Assembly (NCBI RefSeq): GCF_000711885.1
Contig: NZ_JONK01000015.1
Coordinates: 1 to 64,000 of the forward strand
From: Chromobacterium haemolyticum DSM 19808
GTDB taxonomy: Bacteria; Pseudomonadota; Gammaproteobacteria; Burkholderiales; Chromobacteriaceae
DNA: 64,000 bases
Direction of reading: 5' to 3'
Under the pieces are notes generated by a model, which ran no database searches, had not been told where the DNA came from, and saw nothing but the letters and a program-made list of their open reading frames with translations. The translations under genes were made by a program, and so were the position numbers. Positions within the stretch are counted from its first letter, which is position 1. The number at the start of each line of letters is the position of its first letter. Below are positions 12,180 to 58,052 of this stretch, piece by piece.

Positions 12180-13439
<1,260 letters not shown>

Positions 13440-13582
13440 GCGCCTGTTTACGATCTGCTGCGCGTCGTCGAGCGTTGCACGGTGAGTACGCCTTTGAAAT
13501 GCTCATGTACCATATGTACATTCCGCCTTCTCAGCCGTTTTCGCCTTGTCCCGCTCTAGCTCACGGGATCGTAGACAGGCTC
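13440..13582. mobile_element. MITE-like element, copy 3 (143 bp) at the murA stop codon
   Basis: The termini GCGCCTGTTTACGATC and GATCGTAGACAGGCTC form an imperfect inverted repeat. TAA flanks both sides (13437-13439 and 13583-13585), and the left one is the murA stop codon. The insertion therefore left the protein unchanged. The copy is full length and shares the internal GCTCATGTACC...TTCGCCTTGTC sequence. Confidence 0.9.
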
Positions 13583-13609
13583 TAAGCGATAAGCTTGCTT
13601 TTGCAATGA

Positions 13610-13639
13610 AAAACGCCACGGCTGGAACCGTGGCGTTTT
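13610..13639. terminator. Bidirectional rho-independent terminator between murA and yjdM
   Basis: A perfect 12-bp stem AAAACGCCACGG (13610-13621) / CCGTGGCGTTTT (13628-13639) with a 6-base loop has A and T runs at both ends. It can serve murA on the plus strand and the convergent yjdM on the minus strand. Confidence 0.92.
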
Positions 13640-13656
13640 GCTTTGCGGAGCGGGCG

Positions 13657-13992
13657 TTACGCTTTCTTGACGAATTCGGACTTGAGGCTCATCGCGCCGA
13701 TGCCGTCGATTTTGCAATCGATGTCGTGATCGCCGTCGACCAGGCGGATGTTCTTCACCTTGGTGCCTACTTTCACCACCAGCGAGGAGCCTTTGACTTT
13801 CAGGTCCTTGATCACGGTAACGCTGTCGCCGTCTTGCAGCACATTGCCGTTGGCGTCCTTGATCACGCGGGTTTCTTCGGCGGGGGCGGCTTGCTCGTTC
13901 CATTCGTGCGCGCACTCCGGGCAGACATACATCGCGCCATCCTGATAGGTGTATTCGGAGTTGCATTGCGGACAGGCTGGCAGATTGCTCAT
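13657..13992 (-). CDS. yjdM: Zinc-ribbon protein YjdM (PhnA family)
   Basis: The protein has 111 residues. The N-terminal zinc ribbon [13 protein letters not shown]...CPECAHEW (about 7-34) is followed by the PhnA C-terminal domain with [10 protein letters not shown] and [20 protein letters not shown]. It was once named for alkylphosphonate uptake, but no phosphonate genes are nearby and it is not phosphonoacetate hydrolase. Its role is unknown. It is a single gene between two terminators. Confidence 0.88.
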
Positions 13993-14012
13993 GGCGTTTC
14001 CTGTTGAGAAGT

Positions 14013-14051
14013 GAAAAAGAACGCTGCCGGCTCGTTGAGACGGCCGGCAGC
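14013..14051 (-). terminator. Terminator of the mla operon
   Basis: A stem GCTGCCGGC (14023-14031) / GCCGGCAGC (14043-14051) is followed on the minus strand by a T-rich tract (GTTCTTTTTC). It lies just past the mlaA stop codon. Confidence 0.8.
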
Positions 14052-14064
14052 GGAGGGTGCGGAT

Positions 14065-14874
14065 TTACTGCGGGGCGGAGGCTGCGGCCTTGGCGTTGGG
14101 AGCGGCCGTAGCCGGCGCCGAGCTGTCCTGCTTGCCGGCCGGGGAGTCAACCAGCTCGTCAAGGTTGAAATTGTCGGTGGCCTGGGTCGGGTTGGGCAGG
14201 CCCAGCTGCTGTGCGCGCAGCTGCATATAAGCGTCGCGGGTATACGTGTACGGGTCCAGCGCCGCGGTGTTGAGCATGGCTTCCACGCCCAGGTAGCGGG
14301 CGCGGGTATTCACGCCGTACAGGCCGTAAAAGCCCACCGCTTGCCAAGTGGTGTCGTAAAACATCTTTTCTGGACCGGGGCCGGCCAGCGAGACGGTCAG
14401 GCCGGTGCCGTCGCGCACGGTGGACGGGCCGAAGAAGGGCAGCACCAGATAGTTGCTGTCGTGCCATCCCCAGGCGGCGAAGGTGTCGCCCAGCGTGGTC
14501 TTGTTGTTCTTCAGGCCGGCCTGGCTGGCGATGTCGATCAGGCCGAACAGGCCGAAGCCGGTGTTCATCGCCACCCGCATCACGTCGTTCAGCGCTTTTT
14601 CCGGCTCGGCGCGCAAGGCATTGGACAGCGCGCTGTAGACATCCTTGAGGTTGTCGAAGAAATTGCTGACGCCAGTGCGCACCGGCGACGGCGTGATGGC
14701 CTTGTAGCCTTCGGCCACGGGCTTGATCACGTAGCGGTCCGCGGTATCGTTGACCTGGTACATGGCGCGGTTGTACGGCTCGAAGCGGTCGTAAGGCACC
14801 GTTGGGTTGCTGGCGCAGCCGGCTAGCAGCAGCGATAGCGCCAGGCCGGTCAGCGCGGGTTTCAGGGACGACAT
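14065..14874 (-). CDS. mlaA: Outer-membrane lipoprotein MlaA (VacJ)
   Basis: This 269-residue lipoprotein carries lipobox LAGC (Cys near 20) and the VacJ/MlaA family core, with DRFEPYNRAMYQVND (about 30-44) and LPFFGPSTVRDGTG. It sits in the outer membrane and removes misplaced phospholipids from the outer leaflet, passing them to MlaC. The start at 14874 was preferred over the ATG 15 bp upstream because GGAGAGG lies between the two. It is the last gene of mlaFEDCBA, 16 bp after mlaB. The C-terminus is Ala/Pro-rich. Confidence 0.93.
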   Translation of the reverse strand: MSSLKPALTGLALSLLLAGCASNPTVPYDRFEPYNRAMYQVNDTADRYVIKPVAEGYKAITPSPVRTGVSNFFDNLKDVYSALSNALRAEPEKALNDVMRVAMNTGFGLFGLIDIASQAGLKNNKTTLGDTFAAWGWHDSNYLVLPFFGPSTVRDGTGLTVSLAGPGPEKMFYDTTWQAVGFYGLYGVNTRARYLGVEAMLNTAALDPYTYTRDAYMQLRAQQLGLPNPTQATDNFNLDELVDSPAGKQDSSAPATAAPNAKAAASAPQ

Positions 14875-14890
14875 AAATCCTCTCCGCATA

Positions 14891-15184
14891 TCATTCCGCC
14901 GCTGGGGCGGATAGCAATTCCGCCAGCGAGTAAAGGTCGAGCAGGGCGCTGAGCCCGCTTGGCCAGTTTTCCAGGGACAGGGCGTGACCGGCGGCGTCGG
15001 CGGCGCGACGCGCGCCGAGCAACAGAGCCAAGGCGGCGGAGTCGGCTCCGGCTATGCCGGACAAGTCCAGGCGCAACGGCGCTTCACCGGCGAGTTTGGC
15101 CAGCGGCGCGGCCAGCGGGCCGCAGCTATCCATGTTCAGCCGGCCGCTGAGCCGCGCCTGACCGGGGGCGGTGCGCTCCAACAT
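14891..15184 (-). CDS. mlaB: STAS-domain protein MlaB
   Basis: A 97-residue single STAS domain contains the LDLSGIAGADSAALALLL segment that is the usual MlaB core. MlaB binds the MlaF ATPase and is needed for assembly and activity of the MlaFEDB complex at the inner membrane. Sequence conservation in the family is low, so the call rests on fold pattern plus position between mlaC and mlaA. Its start overlaps the mlaC stop (TGATG). Confidence 0.88.
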   Translation of the reverse strand: MLERTAPGQARLSGRLNMDSCGPLAAPLAKLAGEAPLRLDLSGIAGADSAALALLLGARRAADAAGHALSLENWPSGLSALLDLYSLAELLSAPAAE

Positions 15185-15813
15185 CAGCCGTTGCCCTTAT
15201 TTGCGGGCGCCGCGGCCACCGGAGCGGCGTTCTTGTTCTGCAGCAGCTTGATCAGACCGTCCACGCCGTTTTTGCGCACTTCTTCATTGAAGGAATTGCG
15301 ATAGACGGTGACCAGGCTGGCGCCTTCCACGCTCACGTTATAGATCTTCCAGCCTTGCGGGCCCTTGTTCAGTGAGTAGTCCACCGCTACTGGGTTGGCG
15401 TTGCCCGGCAGGCTGACCGTGGTTTTCACCGTGGCGTCGCGGTCGCCGTTGCTCATCAACGGATTGGGCTTGACGTCGACCTGAGCCGTTTTGAAACGGG
15501 TCATGGTGGCGGAATAGGTGCGCACCAGCAGGGTCTGGAACTGCTGAGTCAGTTGGGCGCGCTGTTCGGCGCTGGCCTGACGCCAGCCCAGGCCCACGGC
15601 CAGCGCGGTCATGCGCGGGAAGTCGAACATCGGCACCGCCACCGCTTCCGCCTGCTGGCGGATTTGCTTGGTGTTCTTGCCGTTGTCCTGTTTCAGCACT
15701 TCCAGCACCTGGCGGGATGCGTCTTTGATTACATCGGTGGGGGCGTCGCCGGCGGCTTGGGCCACAGCGGACAGGCCGAACAGCAGACAGCAGAATGCGA
15801 GCAGTTTTTTCAT
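15184..15813 (-). CDS. mlaC: Periplasmic phospholipid-binding protein MlaC
   Basis: This 209-residue protein has a Sec signal peptide (MKKLLAFCCLLFGLSAVAQA). The mature part has the MlaC/Ttg2D pattern: the FDFPRMTALAVGLGWRQAS region (about 72-91), a GWKIYNVSVEGASLV strand and the YRNSF segment. It shuttles phospholipid between outer-membrane MlaA and inner-membrane MlaFEDB. An 89-bp gap containing a GC-rich hairpin separates it from mlaD. Confidence 0.93.
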   Translation of the reverse strand: MKKLLAFCCLLFGLSAVAQAAGDAPTDVIKDASRQVLEVLKQDNGKNTKQIRQQAEAVAVPMFDFPRMTALAVGLGWRQASAEQRAQLTQQFQTLLVRTYSATMTRFKTAQVDVKPNPLMSNGDRDATVKTTVSLPGNANPVAVDYSLNKGPQGWKIYNVSVEGASLVTVYRNSFNEEVRKNGVDGLIKLLQNKNAAPVAAAPANKGNG

Positions 15814-15902
15814 CGTTTTTCCAATCGATTGCGAGTAAGCCGGCGGCGCGGACGGCTCGCCGGCCGGCAGTTTGTTGCGGGGTGCCCCGTCTTTGTGCCG
15901 CG

Positions 15903-16376
15903 CTATTTGTCAGCGCTCTTGTTGCTATCGGTAAAGCCCGTCATGAACTTACCGATCAATTGTTCCAGCACCATGGCGGAGGAGGTGATGGTGATGGTGC
16001 CGCCCGGGGCCAGATTGGTTTCCGAACCGCCCTGCAGCATGCCGATATATTGTTCGCCCAGCAGGCCGGCGGTCAGAATGGACGCGCTGGCGTCGTCGCT
16101 GATCTGATAGGCCTTGTCAATATTCAGAGTCACGCGGGCGCGATAAGTTTTCGGGTTGAGCCGGATGTCGGCCACGCGTCCGATCACCACACCGGCTTCC
16201 TTGACCGGCGCTTTGACCTTCAGTCCGCCGACATTGTCGAAGTCGGCGTACAGCACATAGGTCTGGTTGGCGCTTTGCGGGACCAGGTTGGCCACTTTCA
16301 GCGACAGGAAGGTGACGGCGGCAATGCCCAGCGCCACGAAAATGCCTACCCACAAGTCAATAGTAGAGCGTTTCAT
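15903..16376 (-). CDS. mlaD: MCE-domain lipid transport protein MlaD
   Basis: This 157-residue protein has one N-terminal membrane helix (about 7-27) and one MCE domain (about 38-117), with YADFDNVGGLKVKAPVKEAG and VGRV-type motifs and the LLGEQYIGM end. MlaD forms a hexameric ring in the periplasm that binds phospholipid. The start at 16376 gives the standard MKRSTIDLWVGIFV beginning; the longer open frame upstream is overlap with mlaE. Confidence 0.94.
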   Translation of the reverse strand: MKRSTIDLWVGIFVALGIAAVTFLSLKVANLVPQSANQTYVLYADFDNVGGLKVKAPVKEAGVVIGRVADIRLNPKTYRARVTLNIDKAYQISDDASASILTAGLLGEQYIGMLQGGSETNLAPGGTITITSSAMVLEQLIGKFMTGFTDSNKSADK

Positions 16377-16387
16377 TCGGGTTTTTC

Positions 16388-17173
16388 CTAGAACATGAAG
16401 GCGGTCAGGATGAAATCCAGCGCCAGGATGACCAATGCGGAGGTGACGACAGTCCGGGTGGTGGCGGCGGACACGCCGCTGGCCGTCGGAGTGGCGTCGT
16501 AGCCTTCGAACACGGCGATCAGGGTGACGGCGACGCCGAAGCACAGGCTCTTGATCAGTCCGTTGACCACGTCGAAATGCAGGTCGACGTTGGCCTGCAT
16601 CTGCGACCAGAACGTGCCGACATCCAGGCCTATCATCACCACGCCCACCAGGTAGCCGCCAAAAATGCCGACCACGTTGAACAGCGCGGCCAGGATGGGC
16701 ATGGAGATGACGCCGGCCCAGAAGCGGGGCGCCACCACGCGAGCGATGGGATCGACCGCCATCACGCTCATCGCGTCCAGTTGCTCGGTGGTTTTCATCA
16801 GGCCGATTTCGGCCGTCATCGCGCTGCCGGCGCGGCTGGCGAACAATAGCGCGGCCAGCACCGGGCCCAGCTCGCGCAGCAGCGCCAGCGCCACCACCGC
16901 GCCCAGCGCGTCGGCGGAGCCGAACTTGGCGAGGGTGCTGTAGCCTTGCAGGCCCAGCACCATGCCGACGAAGAGGCCGGACACCAGGATGATGATCAAG
17001 GACATCACGCCGGCGAAATAGACCTCGCGTATGGTCAGCTGCGGCCGCAGCAGGCTCTGGCCGCTGCCCCGCAGGATGGCCACGAGGAAGCGGCAGGCGA
17101 AGCCCAGCCGCCAGACGGCGTTGATGGTGAGGTGGCCGAGCTTGCGCAGGGGCGAGGCGATCAAATCAAGCAT
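16388..17173 (-). CDS. mlaE: ABC permease MlaE
   Basis: This 261-residue inner-membrane protein has five to six helices and the MlaE family core LLRELGPVLAALLFASRAGSAMTAEIG (about 98-124). It is the permease of the MlaFEDB phospholipid transporter. The start overlaps the end of mlaF by 8 bp; mlaD follows 11 bp later. Confidence 0.95.
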   Translation of the reverse strand: MLDLIASPLRKLGHLTINAVWRLGFACRFLVAILRGSGQSLLRPQLTIREVYFAGVMSLIIILVSGLFVGMVLGLQGYSTLAKFGSADALGAVVALALLRELGPVLAALLFASRAGSAMTAEIGLMKTTEQLDAMSVMAVDPIARVVAPRFWAGVISMPILAALFNVVGIFGGYLVGVVMIGLDVGTFWSQMQANVDLHFDVVNGLIKSLCFGVAVTLIAVFEGYDATPTASGVSAATTRTVVTSALVILALDFILTAFMF

Positions 17174-18002
17174 GGCGGCCTCCGTTGAGTCCCAGATCTT
17201 CGGCGAGAGAGCGCTCCGCCGGGTAGGCGTAATGCACCGGACCGTCGGCCTCGCCCCAGATGAACTGGTGAACCCATGGCGAATCCGAGTTGCGCACTTG
17301 GTCCGGCGTGCCTTGGGCGACGATCTCGCCGCCGGCGACGAAGAGCACGTGATCCACGATCTCCAGCGATTTGTGCACGTCGTGGGTAACCATCACCGCG
17401 GTGGTGCCCAGCGCGTTGTTGAGTTTTTTGATCAGGTGGGCGATCACGCCCAGCGAGATCGGATCCAGTCCGGTGAAAGGCTCGTCGTACAGCATCAGCT
17501 GGGGATCCAGCGCGATGGCGCGCGCCAGCGCCACCCGGCGCGCCATGCCGCCGGACAGCTCGGCCGGCATCAGCTGCTGGGTGCCGCGCAAGCCAACGGC
17601 TTCCAGCTTCATGGTCACCAGGTCGCGGATCATGCTGTCCGGCAGCTTGGTGTGCTCGCGAATGGGGAAGGCGACGTTGTCGAACACCGACAGATCGGTG
17701 AAGAGCGCGCCGAACTGGAACAGCATGCCCATGCGGCGGCGGTGTTGATAAAGCTCGGCGGAGCTCATCTTGGCGACGCTCTTGCCGTCAACCAGCACTT
17801 CGCCGCTTTGCGGACGGTTCTGGCCTGAGATCAGCCGCAGCAGCGTGGTTTTGCCACTGCCGCTGCCGCCCATGACGGCCACCAGCTTTCCGCGCGGAAT
17901 AGCAAGGTTGAGGTTTTTCAGAATGGGCCGCTCGCCATAGGCGAAGCTGACGTTTCTGAATTCAATGAAATTGTCAGAAGACACAAAGTTTCCAGATAGC
18001 AT
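17166..18002 (-). CDS. mlaF: ABC ATPase MlaF
   Basis: This ATPase of the Mla transporter has 278 residues from the ATG at 18002. It shows Walker A GGSGSGKTT, signature LSGGMARRVALARAIALDPQ and Walker B LMLYDEPFTGLDP, and the MlaF-typical FGALFTDLSVFDNVAFPIREH Q-loop region. An alternative GTG at 17984 would remove six residues; neither start has a strong ribosome site. It is the first gene of mlaFEDCBA, which is convergent with yadGH-ibaG-murA. Confidence 0.94.
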   Translation of the reverse strand: MLSGNFVSSDNFIEFRNVSFAYGERPILKNLNLAIPRGKLVAVMGGSGSGKTTLLRLISGQNRPQSGEVLVDGKSVAKMSSAELYQHRRRMGMLFQFGALFTDLSVFDNVAFPIREHTKLPDSMIRDLVTMKLEAVGLRGTQQLMPAELSGGMARRVALARAIALDPQLMLYDEPFTGLDPISLGVIAHLIKKLNNALGTTAVMVTHDVHKSLEIVDHVLFVAGGEIVAQGTPDQVRNSDSPWVHQFIWGEADGPVHYAYPAERSLAEDLGLNGGRHA

Positions 18003-18330
18003 GCGTGAAGCCGCGGACGGCTTCGGTTGAAACGGCGGACCCGGAGCGGTGCGATGGCGGGCCGTTCAGGCAAAGCGGCTCTTGAAGCCCGTCATTCCCG
18101 CGCTGACCTTGCATTGCGCCTTGGAGTGAGAGGTGCTTGGAGAGCGGCCGCTTTTTTGCCGATTCTTTTCGAACTGGAGATTTTATAGACTTGTCGTGGA
18201 CTAGCCAAATTTCAACAGCATTTAAGATGCAAATATGCTGCATTGCAATGCGGCTGGCGGCGCGATGGAGGGAAAAGGAGCGTGCAGCGGGCGAGCCGAC
18301 TGCCCGCCCGCGCCGGCGGATGGAGGGGGC
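18003..18330 (-). promoter_or_regulatory. mla operon upstream region with candidate promoter
   Basis: No gene is supported here. The stretch 18160-18250 is AT-richer than its surroundings. On the minus strand a TATAAA (18182-18187) with TTGGCT about 15-16 bp upstream could be the mlaF promoter. GCATTGCAATGC near 18240 is a perfect 12-bp palindrome. The part next to dapD is GC-rich and featureless. Confidence 0.4.
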
Positions 18331-19152: not shown

Positions 19153-19236
19153 GGTGTTCAGTCCTTTGGCAATGTGGATGGAAGTCGTCATTCAATTCGC
19201 TTTCAAGCGGCCGCGCCGGTGGCGGGCCGCGTAGAT

Positions 19237-20439: not shown

Positions 20440-20497
20440 GGGTATCTCCAGAAAAGCGGGCGCAAGCAAACGAACAGCGAACATCTTAAGAACAGCA

Positions 20498-21412: not shown

Positions 21413-21984
21413 TTACGATCCGACCGATGAACGACGGTGATTTCGAGCGTTTCTGGCCCGTGTTCCACGCGGTGGTGGCGGCTAGGGAGACCTATGCCTT
21501 CGATCCTGAGATGACGTGGGAGCAGGCGCGAGAGCTGTGGCTGCGGCTGCCCTTGCACACACTGGTGGCGGAGGAGGACGGCGCGCTGCTGGGCTCGTAT
21601 TTCCTCAAGCCCAACGCCGCCGGCCCGGGCGGCCATGTCTGCAACTGCGGTTATATGGTGGCGGAGGAGGCGCGCGGCAAAGGCGTGGCGCGGCTGATGT
21701 GCGAGCATTCTCAGAAATTGGCGCGGGACAGCGGCTTTCTGGCGATGCAGTTCAATTCGGTCGTGGCCAGCAACGAAGTGGCGGTGGCTCTGTGGCGCAA
21801 GCTGGGTTTTGAGCCGGTGGGCCGTTTGCCGCGCGCTTATCGTCACGCGCGGCTGGGGCTGGTGGACTGTCTGGTCATGTACAAGTGGCTGGGAGACGCC
21901 GCGCCGGAGATGCCGGAGCCGGCGCCGTTGATTGGCCGCAAGAACATTGAGGCGACCGTGTCGCGGCGCAAGGCCGGCCGCTAG
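21409..21984 (+). CDS. GNAT-family N-acetyltransferase
   Basis: This 191-residue protein has the GNAT core at about 5-165, with the acetyl-CoA loop MVAEEARGKGVARLMCEHS (about 84-102) and SNEVAVALWRKLGFEPVG. The substrate is unknown; coupling to a metabolite exporter suggests a small amine or amino acid. The TAG stop (21982-21984) is formed by two genomic bases plus the first G of MITE copy 4, so the insertion sits exactly at the stop. If TAA was the original stop, the protein is unchanged. Confidence 0.88.
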   Translation: MITIRPMNDGDFERFWPVFHAVVAARETYAFDPEMTWEQARELWLRLPLHTLVAEEDGALLGSYFLKPNAAGPGGHVCNCGYMVAEEARGKGVARLMCEHSQKLARDSGFLAMQFNSVVASNEVAVALWRKLGFEPVGRLPRAYRHARLGLVDCLVMYKWLGDAAPEMPEPAPLIGRKNIEATVSRRKAGR

Positions 21985-22075
21985 AACCTGTTCAAAGCCT
22001 GCTGCGCGTCGGCGGTACGGCGTTGAAACCGTTTTCGCCTTGTCTTGCCCTTGCTCACGGATCGTAAGCAGGTTC
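21984..22075. mobile_element. MITE-like element, copy 4 (92 bp, internally deleted)
   Basis: The ends GAACCTGTTCAAAGCC and GATCGTAAGCAGGTTC are flanked by TA (21982-21983 and 22076-22077). Compared with full copies, about 50 bp around GCTCATGTACC are missing. The first base completes the TAG stop of the acetyltransferase gene. Confidence 0.88.
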
Positions 22076-22090
22076 TAAACCGCCGTCGGT

Positions 22091-22321: not shown

Positions 22322-22322
22322 T

Positions 22323-24420: not shown

Positions 24421-24439
24421 TCCGGCTGTGAGCCGGTTC

Positions 24440-24910: not shown

Positions 24911-24936
24911 CGTGAGTGAGCCAGGGGAGTAAACGC

Positions 24937-24974: not shown

Positions 24975-25113
24975 GAACCTGTTTACGATCTGCCACGCGT
25001 TGGCGGTACGGCGTTGAAACCGCCCTCGAAATGCTCATGTACCACTTGACCATTCCGCTTTCTCAGCCGTTTCGCCTTGTCTCGCTCTTGCTCGCGAGAT
25101 CGTAAACACGTTC
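24975..25113. mobile_element. MITE-like element, copy 5 (139 bp) between rsfS and rlmH
   Basis: The ends GAACCTGTTTACGATC and GATCGTAAACACGTTC are near-perfect inverted repeats. TTA flanks both sides (24972-24974 and 25114-25116). This full-length copy interrupts the normally tight rsfS-rlmH arrangement, 14 bp beyond the rsfS stop codon. Confidence 0.92.
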
Positions 25114-25127
25114 TTAGCGCAGCCGGA

Positions 25128-25496
25128 TCAGGTGGCCGACCACGGACGGCCGCCGGCCGGCAGGAAGCTGGGCTTCTGGCCGCCCCACAACGCTTCGATG
25201 TCGTAGTAGTCGCGCACGGCGGGCAGCATCACGTGCACGACCACGTCGCCGGCGTCCACCAGCACCCATTCGCCGCTTTCATGGCCTTCGCTGCCGACGA
25301 TGTCCACGCCGGCTTCCTTCAGCTTGACGTGCACGCTGTTGGCCAGCGCCTTGACCTGGCGGTTGGAGTCGCCGGTGGCCACGATCATGCATTGGAACAG
25401 CGAGGTCAGCTTGCTGGTGTCCAGTTCGATGATGTCCTTGCCCTTGACGTCTTCCAGGGCTTCGATCGCCAGCTTGGCAATGTCTTGCACTTCCAT
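25128..25496 (-). CDS. rsfS: Ribosomal silencing factor RsfS
   Basis: This 122-residue protein of the Iojap/RsfS family binds ribosomal protein L14 and blocks subunit joining in stationary phase. Motifs include ALEDVKGKDIIELDTSKLTS (about 13-32), the CMIVATGDSNRQVKAL segment and EGHESGEWVLVDAGDVVVHVM. A Pro/Gly C-terminal tail is slightly longer than usual. nadD lies 177 bp upstream, a looser spacing than typical. Confidence 0.96.
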   Translation of the reverse strand: MEVQDIAKLAIEALEDVKGKDIIELDTSKLTSLFQCMIVATGDSNRQVKALANSVHVKLKEAGVDIVGSEGHESGEWVLVDAGDVVVHVMLPAVRDYYDIEALWGGQKPSFLPAGGRPWSAT

Positions 25497-26914: not shown

Positions 26915-26969
26915 GAGTCTGTTCATGAGCGTTCTGGAGCACGGACGCAAAAGGATCATGGACAGGCTC
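26915..26969. mobile_element. MITE-like element, copy 6 (55 bp, terminal repeats only)
   Basis: The ends GAGTCTGTTCATGA and TCATGGACAGGCTC form an imperfect inverted repeat with little between them. TGA flanks both sides (26912-26914 and 26970-26972). It sits in the 5' region of the carbonic anhydrase gene. The diverged ends make it less certain than the long copies, but the duplication supports it. Confidence 0.7.
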
Positions 26970-45299: not shown

Positions 45300-45317
45300 G
45301 CGAGGCAATCGCCGGTC

Positions 45318-45357
45318 AACGCCGTATCGACGAATCTTCGCGGCTTTGAACGGGTTC
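45318..45357. mobile_element. MITE-like remnant, copy 7 (right half) at the LysR stop codon
   Basis: CAACGCCGTATCG and CTTTGAACGGGTTC match the end of copy 2, but no left end is recognisable after the tamB stop. The terminal C (45357) pairs with TA to form CTA, the reverse of the TAG stop of the LysR gene. It separates the convergent tamB and LysR genes. Confidence 0.7.
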
Positions 45358-46304
45358 TAAAACCGCAGCGTCAGCATGCGCGCCAGCGCCCGGTCCTCTG
45401 GCCGGGCGGAGCCCATGCGTTGGCGCAGCGTCTGCCGCAGACAGTCGATGAAGCCGCGCGCGGCATAACCGTGAGCCTGCCCTTGCAGGCTGATCACGCC
45501 GATGACGATCTCTTCCATGTCTTCCCGCAGCGACAAGGCCTGGACCTTGCCGGCGAACTCCGGACACAGCAACAAGGGTTCCGGCCCATAGCTGAGCATG
45601 CCGGCCTGAACCAGGCCGGCCAGCAGCGCCATCGACTGCGCGCAGATCAGCCGTTCCGGCGCGATAGCCAGGCCGTGGCGGGTGAACAACTGGTCCAGCA
45701 CGTGGCGGTAGCTGGCCGGGCTGTAATTGACCACCCAATCCTGCTCCAGCAGCGCGGACAAGGATTGTGCGCGCAGCGCAGGATGCCCGTTGCGGGCGAA
45801 CACTCGGCCGCCGTGGCTGAACAGCGGCTGGCAATGGAATTCCTGCGCCAGCGGCTCGAACAGCGGGCCGATGGCGAAATCCATCTGGCCGTCGCGCAAG
45901 CGCGGCAGCGCCACCGCCAGCAAGCCTTCGAACAGTTCCAGCCGGATTTCCGGCAGACGTTGGCGAAAGCGCAACACCACTTCCGGCAATAGCGTGGGCA
46001 CCAGCCAGGGCGTGACGCCTATGCATAGCCGGGCGTCGCGTTGGCCGCGCAGCGCTTCCATTTCGCCGTGGGCGCGTTCCAGTTGCATCGCCACCTGGCG
46101 AGCATGGATCAGCAGCGCCTGACCCGCCTCGGTCAGCCGTGCGCCGCTGGCGTGACGCTGCAACAGGGGCAGCCGCTGTTCTTGCTCCAGCTCGCGCAGC
46201 GTCTTGCTGACCGCGGCCTGGGACAGATCCAACATGCGCGCGGCGGCGCGAATGCCGCCGCCGTCGGCCAGCGCGATCAGCGCTTGCAGTTGCTGCAGTT
46301 TCAT
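45357..46304 (-). CDS. LysR-family transcriptional regulator
   Basis: This 315-residue regulator has the LysR helix-turn-helix at about 1-60 (MKLQQLQALIALADGGGIRA, then LSQAAVSKTLRELE) and a periplasmic-binding-like effector domain (about 88-290). It is divergent from the amidohydrolase/transporter pair and probably controls it in response to the substrate. The start at 46304 has GGAGAAA before it; the upstream extension lacks one. The TAG stop uses one base of MITE copy 7. Confidence 0.88.
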   Translation of the reverse strand: MKLQQLQALIALADGGGIRAAARMLDLSQAAVSKTLRELEQEQRLPLLQRHASGARLTEAGQALLIHARQVAMQLERAHGEMEALRGQRDARLCIGVTPWLVPTLLPEVVLRFRQRLPEIRLELFEGLLAVALPRLRDGQMDFAIGPLFEPLAQEFHCQPLFSHGGRVFARNGHPALRAQSLSALLEQDWVVNYSPASYRHVLDQLFTRHGLAIAPERLICAQSMALLAGLVQAGMLSYGPEPLLLCPEFAGKVQALSLREDMEEIVIGVISLQGQAHGYAARGFIDCLRQTLRQRMGSARPEDRALARMLTLRF

Positions 46305-48951: not shown

Positions 48952-48992
48952 GAGGCGAAGCGTCCGGTCCGGCGTGCGCCGGGCCGGACTCA

Positions 48993-49135
48993 TAACCGGT
49001 TCAAAGCCTGCTGCGCTTTGTGAGGCGTTGCATGGTGAGTACAAGCTCAACATGCTCATGTACCCCTCGGCCATTCCGTTTTTTCGCTCGTTTTCGCCTT
49101 GTCTCGCCCTTGCTCGCGAGGCTTTGAACAGGTTC
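48993..49135. mobile_element. MITE-like element, copy 8 (143 bp) at the GGDEF-EAL stop codon
   Basis: The ends TAACCGGTTCAAAGCC and GGCTTTGAACAGGTTC are inverted repeats. TCA flanks both sides (48990-48992 and 49136-49138). The right TCA is the reverse of TGA, the exact stop codon of the minus-strand GGDEF-EAL gene. It is full length, with GCTCATGTACC inside. Confidence 0.9.
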
Positions 49136-52100
49136 TCAGACCGATAGCCGCTGCCGCAAGGCGTCCATGCGCTGTTCCATCGCTTCGGCGGACAGCGGCG
49201 CGCCCAGCAGATAGCCCTGCATCGCCGAACAGCCGAGTTTACCCAGGTAGATTTGCTGCTGCGGGTGTTCGACGCCCTCGGCCAGCGTGTCCATGCCCAG
49301 GGCGTTAGCCAGGTGAACGATGGCGGAGACGATGGCCGCGTTTTCTTCATCCTGCGGCAGATCGATGATGAAGGAACGGTCTATTTTGATGGTGTCCGGC
49401 GCGAACCGCTTCAGATAGGCCAGGCTGGAGTAGCCGGTGCCGAAATCGTCTATCGACAAGCGCACGCCCATTGCTTTGATCACCGCCAATTGGCGCGCGG
49501 CGAAGTCCGCGTCCTCCATCAGCGTGCTTTCGGTGACTTCGATTTCAAGGCAGTAGCCGGGCAGGCCGCTGCTTTGCAGCGCATCGCGCACGTCGTCGAC
49601 GAAGTCCGGCCGCGTCAGTTGCCGCGCTGAGACGTTCACCGCCATGCGCACCGGGCGCAGGCCGCTGTCGTACCATTGCGCCGCCTGGCGGCAAGCTTCG
49701 CCCAGCACCCAGCGTCCCAGCGGCACCACCAGGCCGGTGTCCTCTGCGATGGGAATGAAGCGAGAGGGCATGATCAAGCCGTGCTCCGGATCGCGCCAGC
49801 GCACCAGCGCCTCGCAGCCGAGCAGGCGCTCGCCGCTCATATTGAACTGCGGCTGATACACCAGATAGAGCTCGCCATGTTCGATGGCGCGGCGCAGCCG
49901 GGTTTCCAGATGCAGCCGTTCAGCCACTTCCACGTTCATTTCCCGGGTGTAGAAGCGGAAGGTGCTGCGGCCGTGCGCCTTGGCGTGGTACATGGCGAGA
50001 TCGGCGTTCATCAGCAGATTCTGCAGGTCGCGGCCGTCGTCCGGCATCAGGCTGATGCCTATGCTGCAACTGACGTTGAGCTGGTGGGCGCCGATGTCGA
50101 AGGGGCGTTGCATCGCGGCCAGCACGCGTTCGGCCACTTGAGCGGCCTCGCCGGGCTGATCGATGGACGGCAGGATGAGCACGAACTCGTCGCCGCCGGT
50201 GCGGCCGACGGTGTCCAGCGCACCCACCGCGGCGCTTAGGCGGCCGGCCGCCTGTTTCAACAGCTCGTCGCCCAAACCGTGGCCCAGGGTGTCGTTGATG
50301 TTCTTGAAGTGATCCAGATCGACGAACAGCACCGCCAGCTGGCCCTGACGCAACTCTGCCTGGCGGATCGCCTGCTGCAGCCGGTCGTTGATCAGCACAC
50401 GGTTGGGCAGGTCGGTCAGCGCGTCGTACTCGGCCAGGTGCTGGACCCGCGCCTCTTGCTCCTTGCGTTCGGAGATGTCGGTGAACAGCGCCACGTAATG
50501 GCTGATTTCACCCTGTTCGTTTTGCAGCACGCTGATGTTCAGCCATTCCGGGAAGATGTCGCCGTTCTTGCGGCGGTTCCAGATCTCGCCGGACCATTGG
50601 CCGCGCTGGGTCAGTTGCTGCCACATGTTTTCGAAGAAGGCCGGTTCGTGGCGGCCGGAGGCGAGCAGGGCTGGAGTCTGACCCAGGGCCTCGCTCTCTT
50701 CGTAGCCGGTGATCGCGCAGAAGGCGCGGTTGACCGCCAGGATGCGGTTGTCCGGGTCGGTGACCAGGATGGCCTCGTTGCTGGATTCGAACACCTTGGC
50801 GGCCAGCCGCAGTTGGCGGTCGGTCTGGCGGCGAGCGGTGATGTCGCGGCCGGTGGCGCACAGATAGTCTTCGCCTTGGTAGTTGAGCGGGCTGACGGTG
50901 ACTTCCAGCCATTGCTCTTCGCCGCAGCATTGCAGGCGGGTGTCGAAGGTGTGAGGCAGGGCGTCCGTGGCCGGGCGGAACAGCGCGCGAGTCAGCGTCG
51001 CGGCGTCGCAACCGCAATCCAGCCGTTGACGCGCTGCTTGGTTGCAGTAAACGATGTCGCCGGCGGCGTTGCGAAGCGCGATCAGATCGGTGGCGTTGTC
51101 CACCATGAAGTGGCTGAGGCGCAGGTCGCGCGAGCGCTGCTCCAGCGAGAGGTGGCTTTGCTGCAGGTCCTGGCGGTAGCGCTGCACCAGCGCGTTGAGC
51201 CAGCGCAGGAAGCACCAGCAGAAGGCCGCGGCGGCCAACAGGGCGGCCAGGGTCAGCAGCAAGGTGGCGACAATGCGTTCGCGCAGGCTGAGCTCGAGTT
51301 CCTGTCTCGCCCGCTGGCTGCTGTCCTCGATGGACTGCACGCGCAGGCTGGTGACCAGGGTCCAGTCCCAGCCGGGCAGCTGGCGCGCATAGGACAGATA
51401 GCGCTCGCCCTGCGGCGCGTCCAGGCTGCTGATCAGGTATTCCATGAAGCCGCCTTGCTTGCCGCGGCGGATCAGTTCGGCAATGCGGCCGCGGTCGGCG
51501 CCGGGCAGGGCGGAGTAGTGCTTGCCGTTCATCGTCGGATTGGACGGGTCCAGCAGGATCACGCCGTGGCGGTCTATGATCATGAAGTCGCCGCTGTCGT
51601 GGCCGAAGCGCATCCGCGCCAGCATCTCCAGGCCTTGCTTCTGCATATCGGTTTCGACGTTGTTCAGATACTCGCCGCTGCCTATCAGCCAGTTGTAAGG
51701 TCCGAAACGGCGGGCGTAGGCGACTTTCTCGCTCATCTCGCCGCGGCCCGGCTGGTACCAGCGGTAAGAGCTGAAGCCGCGCTGTTGGGGGTTGTCCACG
51801 GACTCGATCAGCGCGCGCATGATGTAGCGGCCTTGATCGTCGCGGTTGGCCAGCAGCGAGCCGCCTTCCAACTGCGGCGCGGTGGGCAGCAGCACGCAGC
51901 GCCCGTCCAGGCCGTCGATGAAGAAGTAGCCGCGGCCATCGAAATAGCGCAGCGGCCGCAGCGCTTCCGCGATCAGCCGCTGCACTTGATGCGGGGGCCG
52001 GCGCAGGCGCTCCTGGCGCCAGACGGCGTCGGCCAGGTTCCACGCCTGGTCCACTTGTTCGCGCAGTCTTTGCTTCAGGGTGTCGTTGGTGCGTTCGCGC

Positions 52101-52315: not shown

Positions 52316-52407
52316 GTTTTTGTCGTTATCGCTCGGTGGACCCGCCAGTATAAGGGATTATCGCGTTTGTCATGGCAAAATGTCGGGCCGGCCGGGGCGG
52401 AATCGGG

Positions 52408-52413
52408 TAGAAT
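52408..52413 (+). promoter_or_regulatory. Candidate -10 box of rnpB
   Basis: TAGAAT lies 9 bp before the predicted 5' end of RNase P RNA. The upstream -35 is not convincing by eye. Confidence 0.4.
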
Positions 52414-52421
52414 GGCGGCCG

Positions 52422-52882
52422 GAAGTTGGCCAGACAGTCGCCGCGCAAATTCGCAAGAAGGAGCGGGGAGGAAAGTCCGGGCTCCATAGAGCAGGATGCC
52501 GGTTAACGGCCGGACGCCGTGAGGCGATGGAAAGTGGCGCAGAGAGCTGAACCGCCGATGGCCGGAAGAAGCGCCCGCAAGGGCGCGGATTCTTTATTTC
52601 GCCGCGCAAGCGGCGGGACGGATCAGGCAAGGGTGAAAAGGTGTACTGGCCGGGCGAGAGTCCGGTCGGACAGGTAGGGTGTGGTGCCCTATTCTGCGGT
52701 AAGAGCGCACCGCGGACGTGGTAACACGGACGGCAGGCAAAACCCCATCCGGAGCAAGACCAAATAGGGGGAATTGACGTTGCTCGCGTATATCCCCGGG
52801 TAGGTCGCTTGAGCCTGTCGGTAACGGCAGGCCTAGAGGAATGACTGTCCAACGACAAGACCCGGCTTATCGGCCAACTTCC
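52422..52882 (+). ncRNA. rnpB: RNase P RNA component, bacterial type A
   Basis: This is the catalytic RNA that trims the 5' ends of tRNA precursors. The conserved block GAGGAAAGTCCGGGCTCC lies at about 52468-52485, and AGAGGAATGACTGTCC with CCGGCTTATCGGCC near 52835-52875. The 5' end GAAGTTGGCC pairs with the 3' end GGCCAACTTC, forming P1. The total of about 460 nt is long for a type A RNA but still plausible. It lies between the divergent GGDEF-EAL and dusB genes. Confidence 0.95.
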
Positions 52883-52898
52883 ACCTCATCCCCGCGAT

Positions 52899-52925
52899 CC
52901 CATGGCTTGCCGCTATGGGGTTTGC
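52899..52925 (+). terminator. Weak terminator after rnpB
   Basis: The stem CCCATGGC / GCTATGGG with a 5-base loop is followed by GTTTGCTC. It lies 17 bp beyond the RNA end. Confidence 0.6.
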
Positions 52926-53013
52926 TCAAAAAATAAGCAAAAAAAATCCACGTCCCTGGGAAAAAGCTTTACAATACCGGCCCTTCAGTCAGTTATCCCA
53001 GAGTTTCGCACGC

Positions 53014-54057
53014 ATGCGCATTGGTTCGTACACATTGAAAAACCGGCTGATCGTGGCGCCCATGGCCGGAGTGACGGATAGACCGTTCCGCATGCTGTGC
53101 AAGCAGTTGGGCGCCGGCATGGCGGTATCGGAAATGATCACCTCCAACAAGGCGCTGTGGACCACGGCCAAGACCTTGCGCCGCGCGGATCACACCGGCG
53201 AGGTGGAGCCGATCTCGGTGCAGATCGCGGGTTCCGATCCGGCGCAAATGGCCGAGGCGGCGCGGCTCAACGTGGAGCGCGGCGCGCAGATCATCGACAT
53301 CAATATGGGCTGTCCGGCCAAAAAAGTGTGCAATGTGGCCGCCGGTTCGGCGCTGCTGCGCGACGAGGCGCTGGTGGGCCGCATCCTGGAGGCGGTAGTC
53401 AAGGCGGTGGATGTGCCGGTGACGCTGAAGACGCGGACCGGCTGGAGCCCCGAGCACCGCAACGCCTTGAGAGTGGCCAGGCTGGCGGAGGATTGCGGCA
53501 TTGCCGCGCTGGCCTTGCACGGCCGCACCCGCGAGGACATGTATCGCGGCGCGGCCGAGTACGACACGATACGCGAGGTGAAGCGGCAGATCCGGATTCC
53601 GTTGATCGCCAACGGCGACATCGATACCCCGCAGAAAGCACAGTGGGTGCTGGAACATACCGGCGCCGATGCCATCATGATAGGACGGGCGGCCCAGGGG
53701 CGCCCGTGGATTTTCCGCGAAATTCAGCATTTTCTGGAGAGCGGCGAATGCCTGCCGCCGCCGAAGGTGAGCGAGATCCGTCAGCTCTTGCTGGGGCATC
53801 TGGATGAGCTATACCAGTTTTACGGCGAATACTCGGGCTGCCGCATCGCCCGCAAGCACATCGCCTGGTACACCAAGGGGCTGCAGGGCGGAAATGCGTT
53901 CCGCCAGCAGATGTACCAACTCGAGTCCACGGCGGAACAGCGCTTGGCCGTGGCGGCTTATTTCGACCGTTTGGCGGGGGACTCCGAACGGCTGGTGTAT
54001 TTGGATGGCGCTGGGGAAGCGTTGGACCACGACTCGGAGACGGTGGTGGATGGCTAA
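53014..54057 (+). CDS. dusB: tRNA-dihydrouridine synthase DusB
   Basis: This 347-residue flavoenzyme reduces uridine to dihydrouridine in tRNA, at position 17 in E. coli. It shows APMAGVTDRPFRMLCKQLGAG (about 14-34), INMGCPAKKVCN with the catalytic Cys (about 97-108) and IGRAAQGRPWIF. The start at 53014 matches the family N-terminus MRIGSYTLKN; the frame is open upstream but that part is promoter DNA (TACAAT at 52970). It forms the classic dusB-fis pair. Confidence 0.96.
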   Translation: MRIGSYTLKNRLIVAPMAGVTDRPFRMLCKQLGAGMAVSEMITSNKALWTTAKTLRRADHTGEVEPISVQIAGSDPAQMAEAARLNVERGAQIIDINMGCPAKKVCNVAAGSALLRDEALVGRILEAVVKAVDVPVTLKTRTGWSPEHRNALRVARLAEDCGIAALALHGRTREDMYRGAAEYDTIREVKRQIRIPLIANGDIDTPQKAQWVLEHTGADAIMIGRAAQGRPWIFREIQHFLESGECLPPPKVSEIRQLLLGHLDELYQFYGEYSGCRIARKHIAWYTKGLQGGNAFRQQMYQLESTAEQRLAVAAYFDRLAGDSERLVYLDGAGEALDHDSETVVDG

Positions 54058-54087
54058 TTCCAATCAGACTTGGACAGAATAATAACC

Positions 54088-54324
54088 ATGCAGAACAATG
54101 ACCATATCTCGCAGTCGGTGCGGCTGGCGATGGAACAGTATTTCAGAGACCTGGATGGCGAGAACCCCTCCGCCATCTACGACATGGTGTTGGCTTGCGT
54201 GGAAAAGCCATTGCTCGAGGTGGTGCTGATACACACCCAGGGCAATCAGACCCGGGCGGCGGAGTTGCTGGGATTGAACCGCAACACCCTGCGCAAAAAG
54301 ATGAAGTCTTATGATTTGATATGA
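54088..54324 (+). CDS. fis: DNA-binding protein Fis
   Basis: This 78-residue nucleoid protein bends DNA and regulates rRNA and many other operons. The C-terminal helix-turn-helix GNQTRAAELLGLNRNTLRKKM (about 53-73) is complete; the N-terminal arm is shorter than in enterobacteria, as in other beta-proteobacteria. It starts 30 bp after dusB and is followed by a strong terminator. Confidence 0.96.
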   Translation: MQNNDHISQSVRLAMEQYFRDLDGENPSAIYDMVLACVEKPLLEVVLIHTQGNQTRAAELLGLNRNTLRKKMKSYDLI

Positions 54325-54328
54325 AGAC

Positions 54329-54366
54329 AAACCGGCCATACCGAACAGGGTGGCCGGTTTTTTTTG
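54329..54366 (+). terminator. Rho-independent terminator after fis
   Basis: The stem AAACCGGCCA / TGGCCGGTTT is followed by eight T residues (to 54365). Confidence 0.94.
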
Positions 54367-54397
54367 TGTTTCTTTTTAGTTAACGCGGTAGAGAACC

Positions 54398-55975
54398 ATG
54401 AGCAAAATCGAACGCGCGCTGATCAGCGTCTCCGACAAGAGCGGCATTCTGGAATTCGCCCAGGCCCTGGCCTCCCAAGGCGTGCACATCCTGTCCACCG
54501 GCGGCACCGCCAAACTGCTGGCCGACGCAGGCGTGCCGGTGACTGAGGTGTCCGACTACACCGGCTTCCCGGAAATGCTGGACGGCCGGGTCAAGACCTT
54601 GCATCCGAAAGTGCACGGCGGCATTCTGGGCCGCCGCGATCTGCCGGAACACGTGGCCAAGATGGCCGAGCACGATATCGGCAACATCGATCTGGTTTGC
54701 GTCAACCTCTACCCGTTTGAAGCCACCATCGCCAATCCCGACTGCGAGTTGGAAGACGCGATCGAGAACATCGACATCGGCGGGCCGACCATGGTGCGTT
54801 CCGCCGCCAAGAACTGGGCGCACGTGGCCATCGTCACCGACGCCGCCGACTATGCGGCATTGGCCGAGGAAATGCGCGCCAACGGCGGCGCGTTGTCCAA
54901 GGCCACTCGCTTTGAGTTGGCCAAGAAGGCCTTCACTCACACCGCCGCCTACGACGGCGCCATTTCCAACTATCTGACCAGCCTGGCCGACGGCGCGCTG
55001 GCGGGCAAACCGGAACGCGTGGCCTTCCCCAAACGCCTCAACGCTCAGTTCGTCAAAGTTCAGGACATGCGTTACGGAGAGAACCCGCACCAGGCGGCCG
55101 CTTTCTACCGAGACCTGGACCCGGCCGCCGGCTCCATCGCCAATTATCGCCAGCTGCAAGGCAAGGAACTGTCCTACAACAATATCGCCGACGCCGACGC
55201 CGCCTGGGAAGCGGTGAAGACCTTCGACGATACAGCCTGCGTCATCGTCAAGCACGCCAACCCCTGCGGCGTGGCGGTGGCGGGCGACACGCTGAGCGCT
55301 TACCGGCTGGCCTTCGCCACCGATACCACCAGCGCTTTCGGTGGCATCATCGCCTTCAACCGCCCGGTGGACGCCGCCACGGTGGAAGCGGTGACCGGCC
55401 AGTTCCTGGAGGTGTTGATCGCGCCGGCCTTCACCGAGGAAGCCAAGGCCGTCATCGCCGCCAAGAAGAATGTGCGCGTGCTGGAAATTCCGCTGGAAGC
55501 CGGCTCCAACCGCTTCGAGCTGAAGCGGGTGGGCGGCGGCGTGCTGGTGCAGACGCCGGACATCCGCAATGTGGGCCTGGACGAGTTGCGTGTGGTGACC
55601 CAACGTCAACCGACGCCGCAGGAACTGTCCGACCTGCTATTCGCCTGGCGCGTGGCGAAATATGTGAAGTCGAATGCAATTGTTTTCTGTAAAAATGGTC
55701 AGACTGCCGGTATCGGCGCTGGTCAGATGAGCCGCGTGGACTCCACCCGCATCGCGGCGCGCAAGGCGGCAGACGCCGGCTTGAGCCTGCAGGGCGCGGT
55801 GGCGTCGTCCGACGCCTTCTTCCCGTTCCGCGACGGTATCGACGTCATCGCCGAACAGGGGATCAAGGCCATCATCCAGCCGGGCGGTTCGATGCGCGAC
55901 GAGGAGGTCTTCGCCGCCGCCGACGAGCACGGCATCGCGATGGTGCTGACTGGAGTGCGCCACTTCCGCCACTGA
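54398..55975 (+). CDS. purH: Bifunctional AICAR transformylase / IMP cyclohydrolase
   Basis: PurH catalyses the last two steps of IMP synthesis. It has 525 residues: an MGS-like cyclohydrolase domain (about 1-140, with [16 protein letters not shown] and [16 protein letters not shown]) and an AICAR transformylase domain (about 145-525), with KHANPCGVA and [13 protein letters not shown]. It is followed 29 bp later by pagP, and then purD, whose enzyme acts earlier in the same pathway. Confidence 0.97.
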
Positions 55976-56004
55976 GTTTTTCCGATTAACCGGAGGAGGC
56001 CGGC

Positions 56005-56598
56005 ATGCCGGCTTCTTTGCATGGATTTGTTGTTTTTCTGATGAGAGCAATTGCCTGTTGGCTGGGCGCCGGCTTGTTGGCGTCCTGCAGCCTGGCGGCG
56101 CGGGCCGAAGAGCCGGCCGCCGAATCGCAAGGTTTCTGGCAGCGGAGCCGCGCCAATATCGAGGCGGCCTGGCGTTCCGACCAGTACGAGCTGTACGTGC
56201 CGGCGGTGACGTGGCACAACCGCGCCTTCTACGATAGAGAGAAGATCAAGCAGTTCAACGAACGGCCGTGGGGCTTGGGCCTGGGGCGTTATCGCTACGA
56301 CGCCGACGGCGATTGGCACGCGCTGTACGCGATGGCCTTCCTTGATTCGCATAAGGACGTGGAGCCCTTTGTGGGCTACGCCTTCCAGAAAGTGTGGCGT
56401 CCGCTGGAAGGCTGGCGCTTGGGAGCGGGCTTTACCGCCGGCGTCACCGCGCGCTCGGACTACAGTTACGCGCCGTTGCCGGCGGTGCTGCCGCTGGTGT
56501 CGGTGGAATACCGCCGGCTGGCCTTGCAGGCCACTTATATTCCCGGCGGGCACAACAACGGCAATGTCCTGTTTGCCTGGTTGCGTTGGCAATTGTGA
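56005..56598 (+). CDS. pagP: Lipid A palmitoyltransferase PagP
   Basis: This 197-residue outer-membrane enzyme moves palmitate from phospholipid to lipid A. It has a signal peptide (up to about 35), the amphipathic helix, the [18 protein letters not shown] motif with catalytic His, and [19 protein letters not shown] with the catalytic Asp-Ser pair. The beta-barrel ends in W and L aromatics. GGAGGAGG precedes the ATG at 56005; an internal ATG at 56041 has no such site. Its place between two purine genes has no functional logic that I can see. Confidence 0.92.
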
Positions 56599-56655
56599 TC
56601 GAATGAGAAATCCGGCGCGCCGAGGCGCGCCGCAAAAACGAGTGGAGCATCGCAC

Positions 56656-57933
56656 ATGAAAGTACTGGTAATCGGCTCCGGCGGGCGCGAGCACGCGCTG
56701 GCCTGGCGCATCGCCAAGTCGCGCCGGGTGTCCAAGGTCTTTGTCGCGCCCGGCAACGCCGGCACCGCGCTGGACCCCAATCTGACCAACGTCGATCTTG
56801 GCAGCGTGGCAGAGTGGGTGGCTTTCGCCAAGCAGGAGAAAATCGAGCTGACCGTGGTGGGCCCGGAAGCGCCGCTGGCGGCCGGCGTGGTGGATGCCTT
56901 CCGCGCCGAGGGGCTGCGGATATTCGGCCCCACTCAATACTGCGCGCAGTTGGAGAGCTCCAAGGATTTCGCCAAGGCCTTCATGAAGCGCCACGGCATC
57001 CCCACCGCCGCTTATGAAACCTTCAGCGACGCCGCCGCCGCCCATGCTTATGTCGATTCCAAGGGCGCGCCCATCGTGATCAAGGCCGATGGCCTGGCCG
57101 CAGGCAAGGGGGTGGTGGTGGCGTTGACGCTGGACGAGGCGCACGCCGCCATCGACGACATGCTGGTGGGCAACAAGATGGGCAGCGCCGGGGCGCGGGT
57201 AGTGATAGAGGACTTCCTGCAAGGCGAGGAGGCCAGCTTTATCGTGATGGTGGATGGTGACCATGTGCTGCCCATGGCCACCAGCCAGGATCACAAGCGG
57301 CTGCTGGACAACGATCAGGGCCCGAATACCGGCGGCATGGGCGCGTACAGCCCGGCGCCGGTGGTGACGCCGGCGGTGCACAACCGGGTGATGCGCGAAA
57401 TCATCCTGCCCACAGTGCTGGGCATGAAGAAGGACGGCCACAGCTATACCGGCTTTCTCTATGCAGGCCTGATGATAGACGCCCAAGGCAATCCTTATAC
57501 CATCGAGTTCAATTGCCGCTTCGGCGATCCTGAAACTCAACCCATCATGGCGCGGCTGAAGTCGGATTTCACCGTGCTGCTGGAAGCCGGCGTCAACGGA
57601 CGTCTGAACCAGGTAGAGGCGGAATGGGACCGGCGCGTGGCGCTGGGCGTGGTGCTGGCGGCCGAAGGCTATCCGGAAGCGCCGCGCAAGGGCGATCTGA
57701 TCAGCGGCCTTCCGCCGGAGAGCGAGGACGGCATGGTGTTCCACGCCGGCGTCAGCCTGGACGCGGACAAGCAACTGCGCAGCAACGGCGGCCGAGTGCT
57801 GTGCGCGGTAGGCCTGGGCGACAGCGTCAAGATGGCGCAGGGCAAGGCTTACACGTTGGCTGACCAGATTCAGTTCGCAGGCAAGCAGTTGCGCCGGGAC
57901 ATAGGCGCGCGCGCGATTGGCCGCAAGCACTGA
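56656..57933 (+). CDS. purD: Phosphoribosylamine-glycine ligase
   Basis: PurD makes glycinamide ribonucleotide, step two of purine synthesis. It has 425 residues with the ATP-grasp layout: N-terminal [16 protein letters not shown] (about 2-17), [13 protein letters not shown] and [15 protein letters not shown] (about 275-289). Its TGA stop (57931-57933) is the left target duplication of MITE copy 9, so the protein is untouched. Confidence 0.97.
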
Positions 57934-57981
57934 GAGCCCGTTCAAAGTCTCGCTCTAGCTCGCGAGATCGTGAACAGATTC
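57934..57981. mobile_element. MITE-like element, copy 9 (48 bp) at the purD stop codon
   Basis: The ends GAGCCCGTTCAAAGTC and GATCGTGAACAGATTC are flanked by TGA (57931-57933 and 57982-57984). The left TGA is the purD stop. Only the terminal regions remain, joined by a CTCGC segment. Confidence 0.85.
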
Positions 57982-58052
57982 TGAGCCCCGTCGTTTGAAG
58001 CAAAAACAGCGTCGTTCGCGGCGCTGTTTGCATTTCCGGGCTTGGGTCCGGC

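Follow-up and report, generated by a model that had tools for sequence, protein, structure and literature searches.

Miniature inverted-repeat transposable elements (MITEs) have been described close to gene ends in Coxiella burnetii, where QMITE2 lies mainly in 3' untranslated and intergenic DNA and where the QMITEs overlap named genes by 1-50 bp ('C-terminal' overlaps), in some cases supplying only the stop (PMC5896051, in the text available to us). MITEs at gene 3' ends and MITE-supplied stops are thus already known. The elements described here come from the first 64,000 nucleotides of contig NZ_JONK01000015.1 of Chromobacterium haemolyticum DSM 19808 (the window, C13:1-64000; the genome, hereafter G000, spans 5.03 Mb on 63 contigs), where several copies end exactly on the stop codon of a host gene. 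Judged by their ends, they are IS5-family MITEs sharing terminal repeats with an insertion sequence (IS) of about 850 bp from the same genome, a known kind of element with an unusual distribution. They differ from the Coxiella elements, whose direct repeats (DRs) are 2-3 nt long and of variable sequence in QMITE1 and 7-11 nt long in QMITE2, with no fixed TNA target, and for which the text at hand contains neither an enrichment test nor an orientation effect (PMC5896051). In ISLxc2 and ISLxx4 of Leifsonia xyli, as far as that account could be followed, a stop lies within the duplicated host target NCTAGN, but it serves the outward-reading transposase, whereas here the stop is that of the host gene (PMC2516522). 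Our elements resemble prokaryotic MITEs in general in being intergenic, in their stable stem-loop transcripts, in their waning DRs and in inserting into one another, but such MITEs are described as AT-rich and as lying in AT-rich intergenic DNA; the term 'stop codon' does not occur in the main text of the review concerned, by term search of the part available (PMC10969869). With IS5-family MITEs (NF033580, transpos_IS5_3; DUF4096 and DDE_Tnp_1; two overlapping frames) they have in common shared terminal inverted repeats, a 3-bp target-site duplication (TSD), shortness and many copies, and they add an excess on stops and a dependence on orientation that were not met in the papers searched. Searches of an open-licence library brought up no paper describing a bacterial MITE that prefers stop codons, let alone in one orientation, and none on Chromobacterium combined with MITEs.

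The excess of copies on stop codons is confined to one element orientation, with the CTGC end towards the gene, and copies in reverse orientation track the supply of targets. We observed this in a 1.657-Mb sample of G000 (the whole of C13 plus C1 1-400k, C2 1-320k, C3 1-200k, C4 1-320k and C5 1-300k), with comparison samples of 0.80 Mb from a congener (G013) and 0.38 Mb from a genome of another family (G057), the latter in stretches picked for holding copies. Gene ends were taken from a home-made codon-usage caller trained on long open reading frames rather than from public annotation (1459 genes called in the G000 sample, 87% coding). The final copy set stems from a profile search that ignores TSDs, because a stop protects its own TSD copy and thereby biases any TSD-dependent detection; it holds 123 full copies in G000, 30 in G013 and 44 in G057. 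A further congener, G004, was sampled in 20 short stretches, which are too small for tests (16 paired copies: 5 exactly on a stop, 2 overlapping one, 6 intergenic and 3 coding).

In G000 and G013 together, 70 of the 153 full copies are on stops, 73 are intergenic and 10 are coding. The G000 copies comprise 50 on operon-terminal stops, 3 on tight stops, 4 overlapping a stop, 29 within 70 nt after a stop, 32 in other intergenic DNA and 5 in coding sequence; the corresponding numbers are 13, 0, 0, 5, 7 and 5 in G013, and 5, 0, 1, 19, 16 and 3 in G057. A simple null, in which stops make up 10.6% of non-coding TNA sites, was too crude and was replaced by flank-stratified and motif-weighted nulls. 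For the two Chromobacterium genomes, the 63 copies on operon-terminal stops compare with an expectation of 11.6 or 17.1 when intergenic TNA sites are weighted by their flanks, i.e. 5.5 times the intergenic mean with weighting by ±1 base and 3.7 times with ±4 bases. The 3' flank reaches 1.9 or 1.5 times that mean, depending on the weighting, and coding sites only 0.06-0.07 times (10 observed vs 150-166 expected). When operon-terminal stops are set against the first 70 nt downstream, 63 copies stand against 33 (33 for 34 flank copies, since only sites whose retained TSD copy is TNA enter the model counts) with an expected share of 0.40-0.43 (p 5.6e-7 with ±1 base, 1.2e-5 with ±4 bases), a 2.5-2.9-fold preference after weighting. 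Operon-terminal stops therefore outdo neighbouring targets of like sequence, which is not the case for tight or overlapping stops. The earlier TSD-dependent set of G000 had given 41 exact stop contacts among 78 copies, vs 13.8 expected. In that set none of the 353 TNA stops whose co-directional neighbour lies no more than 20 bp away was occupied, but we do not claim a sparing of such tight stops, as the profile set has 3 copies there, near the intergenic mean. The sequence-only reading of the window had proposed counting stop contacts in the genome against the expectation for TNA sites; over this third of the genome and the congener, they exceed it, so that the outcome which it had named as refuting did not arise, even if under half of the G000 copies (57/123) touch a stop.

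Orientation separates the copies on stops from those just beyond. Calling a copy forward when its CTGC end faces the gene, the forward:reverse ratio at stops, exact and overlapping, is 42:15 in G000, 11:2 in G013 and 3:3 in G057, and in the 70-nt flank 9:20, 2:3 and 10:9, respectively. The ratios for G000 and G013 together, 53:17 at stops and 11:23 in the flank, differ strongly (Fisher 3.3e-5); since the split was first noticed in the same data, the p-values of this comparison are exploratory. Taking all stop contacts as counts and the target share of operon-terminal stops as expectation, the forward copies (53 on stops vs 11 in the flank) give p 3e-12 to 1e-10, and the reverse copies (17 vs 23) give p 0.75 to 1.0, matching target supply. 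The contrast is sharpest between co-directional neighbours, with 36:10 at the stop vs 1:13 for copies whose TSD lies 3-40 nt from the first base of the stop (Fisher 2.5e-6), and is weaker between convergent neighbours (17:7 vs 4:5). The sequence-only reading had offered transposase preference or selection as the choice, which leaves out this one-orientation excess, predicted neither by a palindromic target nor by simple gene-sparing selection.

A check that needs no gene calls is possible because a forward copy on a stop carries a purine in the middle of its TSD. Counted over whole genomes, with an intact end and TNA required and hence as undercounts, the purine:pyrimidine ratio beside the CTGC end is 89:52 in G000, 112:69 in G001 (p 0.0017), 74:42 in G004, 102:53 in G013 and 102:52 in G018 (sum 479:268), and 73:66 in G057. 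This is not a clean hold-out, as the G018 motifs and part of the G001 motifs had been listed beforehand and the G018 list prompted the count. Beside the CTCG end, where in forward copies the TSD does not serve as the stop, the ratio is 316:209 over the five congeners. A purine preference beside the CTGC end was considered as the cause of the orientation bias and dropped, as the 71 intergenic copies of G000 and G013 have 31 purines and 40 pyrimidines. In other genera of the same family, G022 (29:10) and G031 (15:4) likewise show a strong skew at the CTGC end, G028 (21:21) shows none, and the small counts of G034 (5:7) and G036 (3:6) point the other way.

The target itself is C-TNA-G and nearly palindromic: in the 78 copies with identical TNA TSDs, C precedes in 65%, G follows in 72%, and A or T occupies position N in about 80%. 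The motif TNA given by the sequence-only reading thus describes the TSDs correctly and is incomplete as a target. A TNA target is also characteristic of the IS1031 subgroup of IS5, a candidate assignment for these elements. Stops of the TAA and TGA type resemble this target and are harmless places to insert, so target supply combined with gene-sparing selection might account for the contacts by itself. Such an explanation agrees with the roughly 15-fold depletion of coding insertions, with the higher density in 3' flanks than in other intergenic DNA and with the lack of excess at tight or overlapping stops. It suffices for G057, which has the same target logo as G000 and whose 5 stop and 19 flank copies are near its target supply of 1.65 : 5.51 (against the genus, Fisher p 1.4e-4, not corrected for exposure). 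In Chromobacterium, however, operon-terminal stops remain 2.5-2.9-fold above an equally harmless 3' flank after weighting, and the orientation flips between stop and flank; supply as the only cause is already disfavoured in this genus and is unlikely overall.

Eight recognisable copies are present in the window, five of which meet a gene at its stop, one of these being truncated and one a faint remnant:

13440..13582, plus strand: 143-bp MITE on the murA TAA stop, CTGC end facing the gene; TSD TAA/TAA at 13437-13439 and 13583-13585; profile hit.
21984..22075, plus strand: 92-bp truncated MITE on the TAG stop (21982-21984) of a GNAT acetyltransferase gene; two profile hits, Pfam.
45347..45357, no strand assigned: degraded end of an element at the TAG stop of a minus-strand LysR gene (CTA at 45357-45359 on the plus strand); end match with 1 mismatch.
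48993..49135, plus strand: 143-bp MITE at the TGA stop of a minus-strand Cache-PAS-GGDEF-EAL gene, with the CTCG end towards the gene; profile hit.
57934..57981, no strand assigned: 48-bp element consisting of two terminal repeats, at the purD TGA stop; left TSD TGA at 57931-57933, TGA/TGA.

The sequence-only reading had described these five contacts, and all of them are found in the sequence at the bases that it named; the gene products were checked with Pfam. It also held that insertion duplicates the stop, which applies to murA, GGDEF-EAL and purD, where the TSD is the stop (for GGDEF-EAL, TCA at 49136-49138 on the plus strand, the right TSD of a TCA/TCA pair). In the acetyltransferase and LysR genes, the stop is TAG and is completed by the terminal base of the element. 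In the former, TA precedes the element, G is its first base and the flanks CTA and TAA differ; in the latter, only the right terminal repeat is recognisable, the C of the stop is the last base of the element end, and the remnant is absent from the profile hits at E <= 1e-5. Its other statements, that the copies are MITEs with TNA TSDs, that TAA and TGA stops are legal targets and that the protein stays intact, agree with what we find.

Uninterrupted orthologous loci, which the sequence-only reading had proposed to look for, exist in the congener. The murA and GGDEF-EAL sites of G013 are empty, with the same TAA and TGA stops present, and its purD orthologue is empty with TAG at the homologous place. 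The best relatives of purD (82-85%), in a search from which near records may be missing, come from Chromobacterium, Pseudogulbenkiania, Vogesella, Paludibacterium and an unclassified Neisseriaceae. Counting empty sites against unedited sequence, with 139 queries, most of them without a counterpart in the samples, 10 of the 13 placed G000 stop sites and 7 of the 11 intergenic ones have no element end in G013; in the opposite direction the numbers are 3/8 and 1/4. Ten further hits (2 stop, 8 intergenic) were dropped as their flank was short of the site. An element end is present at the same stop of the other genome for 3/13 placed G000 sites and 5/8 placed G013 sites. These doubly occupied stops include C13:64300 / G013 C1:72091, C1:340168 / G013 C12:131353 and C1:343976 / G013 C12:127455; in at least 2 cases a different element end lies beside the stop, so that repeated hits or replacement are possible.

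The empty sites bear on whether the enrichment is an artefact, produced by our gene calls, by detection that relies on TSDs or by common descent of insertions. The first, TSD-dependent set did favour stops, which protect their TSD, and gave no exact stop contact among 31 TSD-identical copies in G057, where the profile gave 5 operon-terminal stops among 44; some stops are, moreover, occupied in both Chromobacterium genomes. Nevertheless, the excess recurs with the profile, only 2 of the 41 stop genes with identical TSDs in G000 are shorter than 40 codons, at most of the G000 stop sites that could be placed G013 has no element end, and the purine skew is independent of gene calls, so that an artefact is very improbable.

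The MITEs insert into C-TNA-G with a 3-bp TSD, and insertion on TAA or TGA spares the protein, the upstream TSD copy serving as stop. We propose that purifying selection clears nearly all coding insertions, target motif and purifying selection together setting the baseline of stop contacts. On top of this baseline comes the further excess at operon-terminal stops, in this genus, borne by copies with the CTGC end towards the gene. The bias at the stop itself differs from that 3-40 nt further on, without a matching asymmetry in the target or in intergenic copies, and we infer that the excess depends on the boundary where translated RNA gives way to untranslated RNA. Its cause is probably early, orientation-dependent selection on the mRNA 3' end, biased integration being less likely.

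Several observations weigh against this explanation. Tight stops show no excess (3 observed vs 3.5-4.2 expected, 0.7-0.9 times the intergenic mean in G000 and G013), nor do stop-overlapping sites (3 vs 3.0-3.2, about 1.0 times). Terminator-like hairpins follow forward-occupied, reverse-occupied and free stops in 12/47, 5/15 and 339/1466 cases, and the distance to the next gene is similar for both orientations. Stop copies are no more shared between G000 and G013, in both directions, than intergenic ones (8/21 vs 7/15), which means that they are not kept longer; nearest-neighbour identity is alike in both (p 0.26), and stop contacts number 18, 16 and 12 of 33 from the youngest to the oldest age tertile. 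A greater age of stop copies was accordingly discarded as an explanation, on the basis of identity and sharing. The purine skew at the CTCG end is significant singly in 2/5 genomes (G004 and G013), and the pooled p-values are not fully independent, with some stops carrying elements in both genomes.

Part of this evidence suits a bias of integration, in which the transposition complex would prefer stops in a single orientation because it senses something where a translated gene ends, such as coupled transcription and translation, an RNA-DNA hybrid or a bound factor. The youngest copies include no smaller a share of stop contacts, stop copies are shared no more than intergenic ones, and the strong orientation effect has no matching asymmetry of base N in intergenic copies. 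Against it, local DNA sequence is not enough for such a preference, as weighting by ±6 bases in the TSD-identical set leaves a 4.9-5.0-fold stop excess over the intergenic mean, and G057, with the same target, stays near supply. We know of no IS5-family mechanism that senses stop codons, and count this too against integration bias, the main rival, which we regard as possible yet rather less than even in its chances. It is similarly tentative that an IS5-type system might recognise the end of translation, landing in one orientation on the stop itself and spreading without harm to proteins.

Over its full length, and on both strands, the element forms a single long hairpin (-64 and -70 kcal/mol), and the orientation effect suggests a strand-specific role of the RNA. 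Genes without a transcription terminator or a stabiliser of the RNA 3' end might therefore have recruited the element for that purpose. Nevertheless, occupied stops do not lack terminator-like hairpins (17/62, about equal to the proportion behind free stops), for which reason terminator replacement was rejected; this also leaves unsupported the proposal of the sequence-only reading that insertion is a mechanism for filling 3' ends. Moreover, forward copies are few 3-40 nt downstream (5/23), where such a role should also work, and this function is doubtful. Polarity on the next gene was rejected as a cause, the gaps being alike in both orientations.

If the excess arises by selection, hundreds of natural insertions would report, by orientation, which RNA structures are tolerated right after a stop. 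If it arises at insertion, a simple DDE transposon would have a gene-sparing 'safe harbour' in the stop codon, and a sensing of translation would be directly testable. Either way, the finding is relevant to the question of how a genome that is about 87% coding in the sampled third, by our own gene calls, accommodates hundreds of copies.

All window repeats have the ends GARCCTGTTYA...TRAACAGGYTC and TNA flanks in common, with size clusters at 48, 140 and 143 bp. When up to 2 mismatches are allowed, the left-end pattern matches the whole genome 518 times, vs 1 for the reversed control. These size classes are short, bear terminal inverted repeats and lack a transposase gene; identical TNA flanks both sides of 68/123 profile-found G000 copies, the copies are numerous, and empty orthologous sites exist. 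An IS of 850 bp at C3:189664-190513 has ends matching those of the MITEs and TTA on both sides, and its two overlapping frames match NF033580 (IS5 family transposase), PF13340 and PF01609, which places an IS5-type DDE transposase within an element with the same ends. The end of such a parental element and the three copies without stop contact complete the window:

1..183, plus strand: 3' end of a parental IS5-family element, with a transposase fragment at 14-163 (PF01609, C13:14-163) and the terminal repeat to 183, followed by TTA.
187..326, minus strand: 140-bp MITE, TSD TTA/TTA, adjoining the parental IS end; no stop contact; profile hit, end pairing.
2536..2672, minus strand: 137-bp MITE, TSD starting 16 nt after the first stop base of the gene ending at 2519; profile hit.
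24975..25113, plus strand: 139-bp MITE, TSD starting 14 nt after the first stop base of the minus-strand gene 25128-25496; profile hit.

Ten contigs (C12, C13, C17, C19, C30, C31, C33, C39, C40 and C45) begin, within their first 50 bases, in a piece of an IS transposase gene; assembly breaks thus probably conceal full IS copies, which are undercounted as a result. Among congeners, G002, G006, G007 and G014-G017 have no element-end match (<=1 mismatch) and others have 215-298, which indicates a patchy expansion within the genus. Tandem copies with one common TSD occur at C3:30807/30950, C4:280861/281004 and C5:113839/113985; their junction TTC-TNA-GA restores the extended target, so that copies insert beside each other's ends. 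The consensus, read from the CTGC-first strand in frame 2, is open throughout in 79/123 G000 and 20/30 G013 copies, compared with 5-29/123 for the other frames; this frame terminates on the right TSD when it is TAA, and an insertion within a gene could thus append a C-terminal tail. Finally, a 55-bp pair of imperfect ends that resembles the family, with TGA on both sides, lies at 26915-26969 of the window; it was not found by the profile and is possibly a chance match or a decayed copy.

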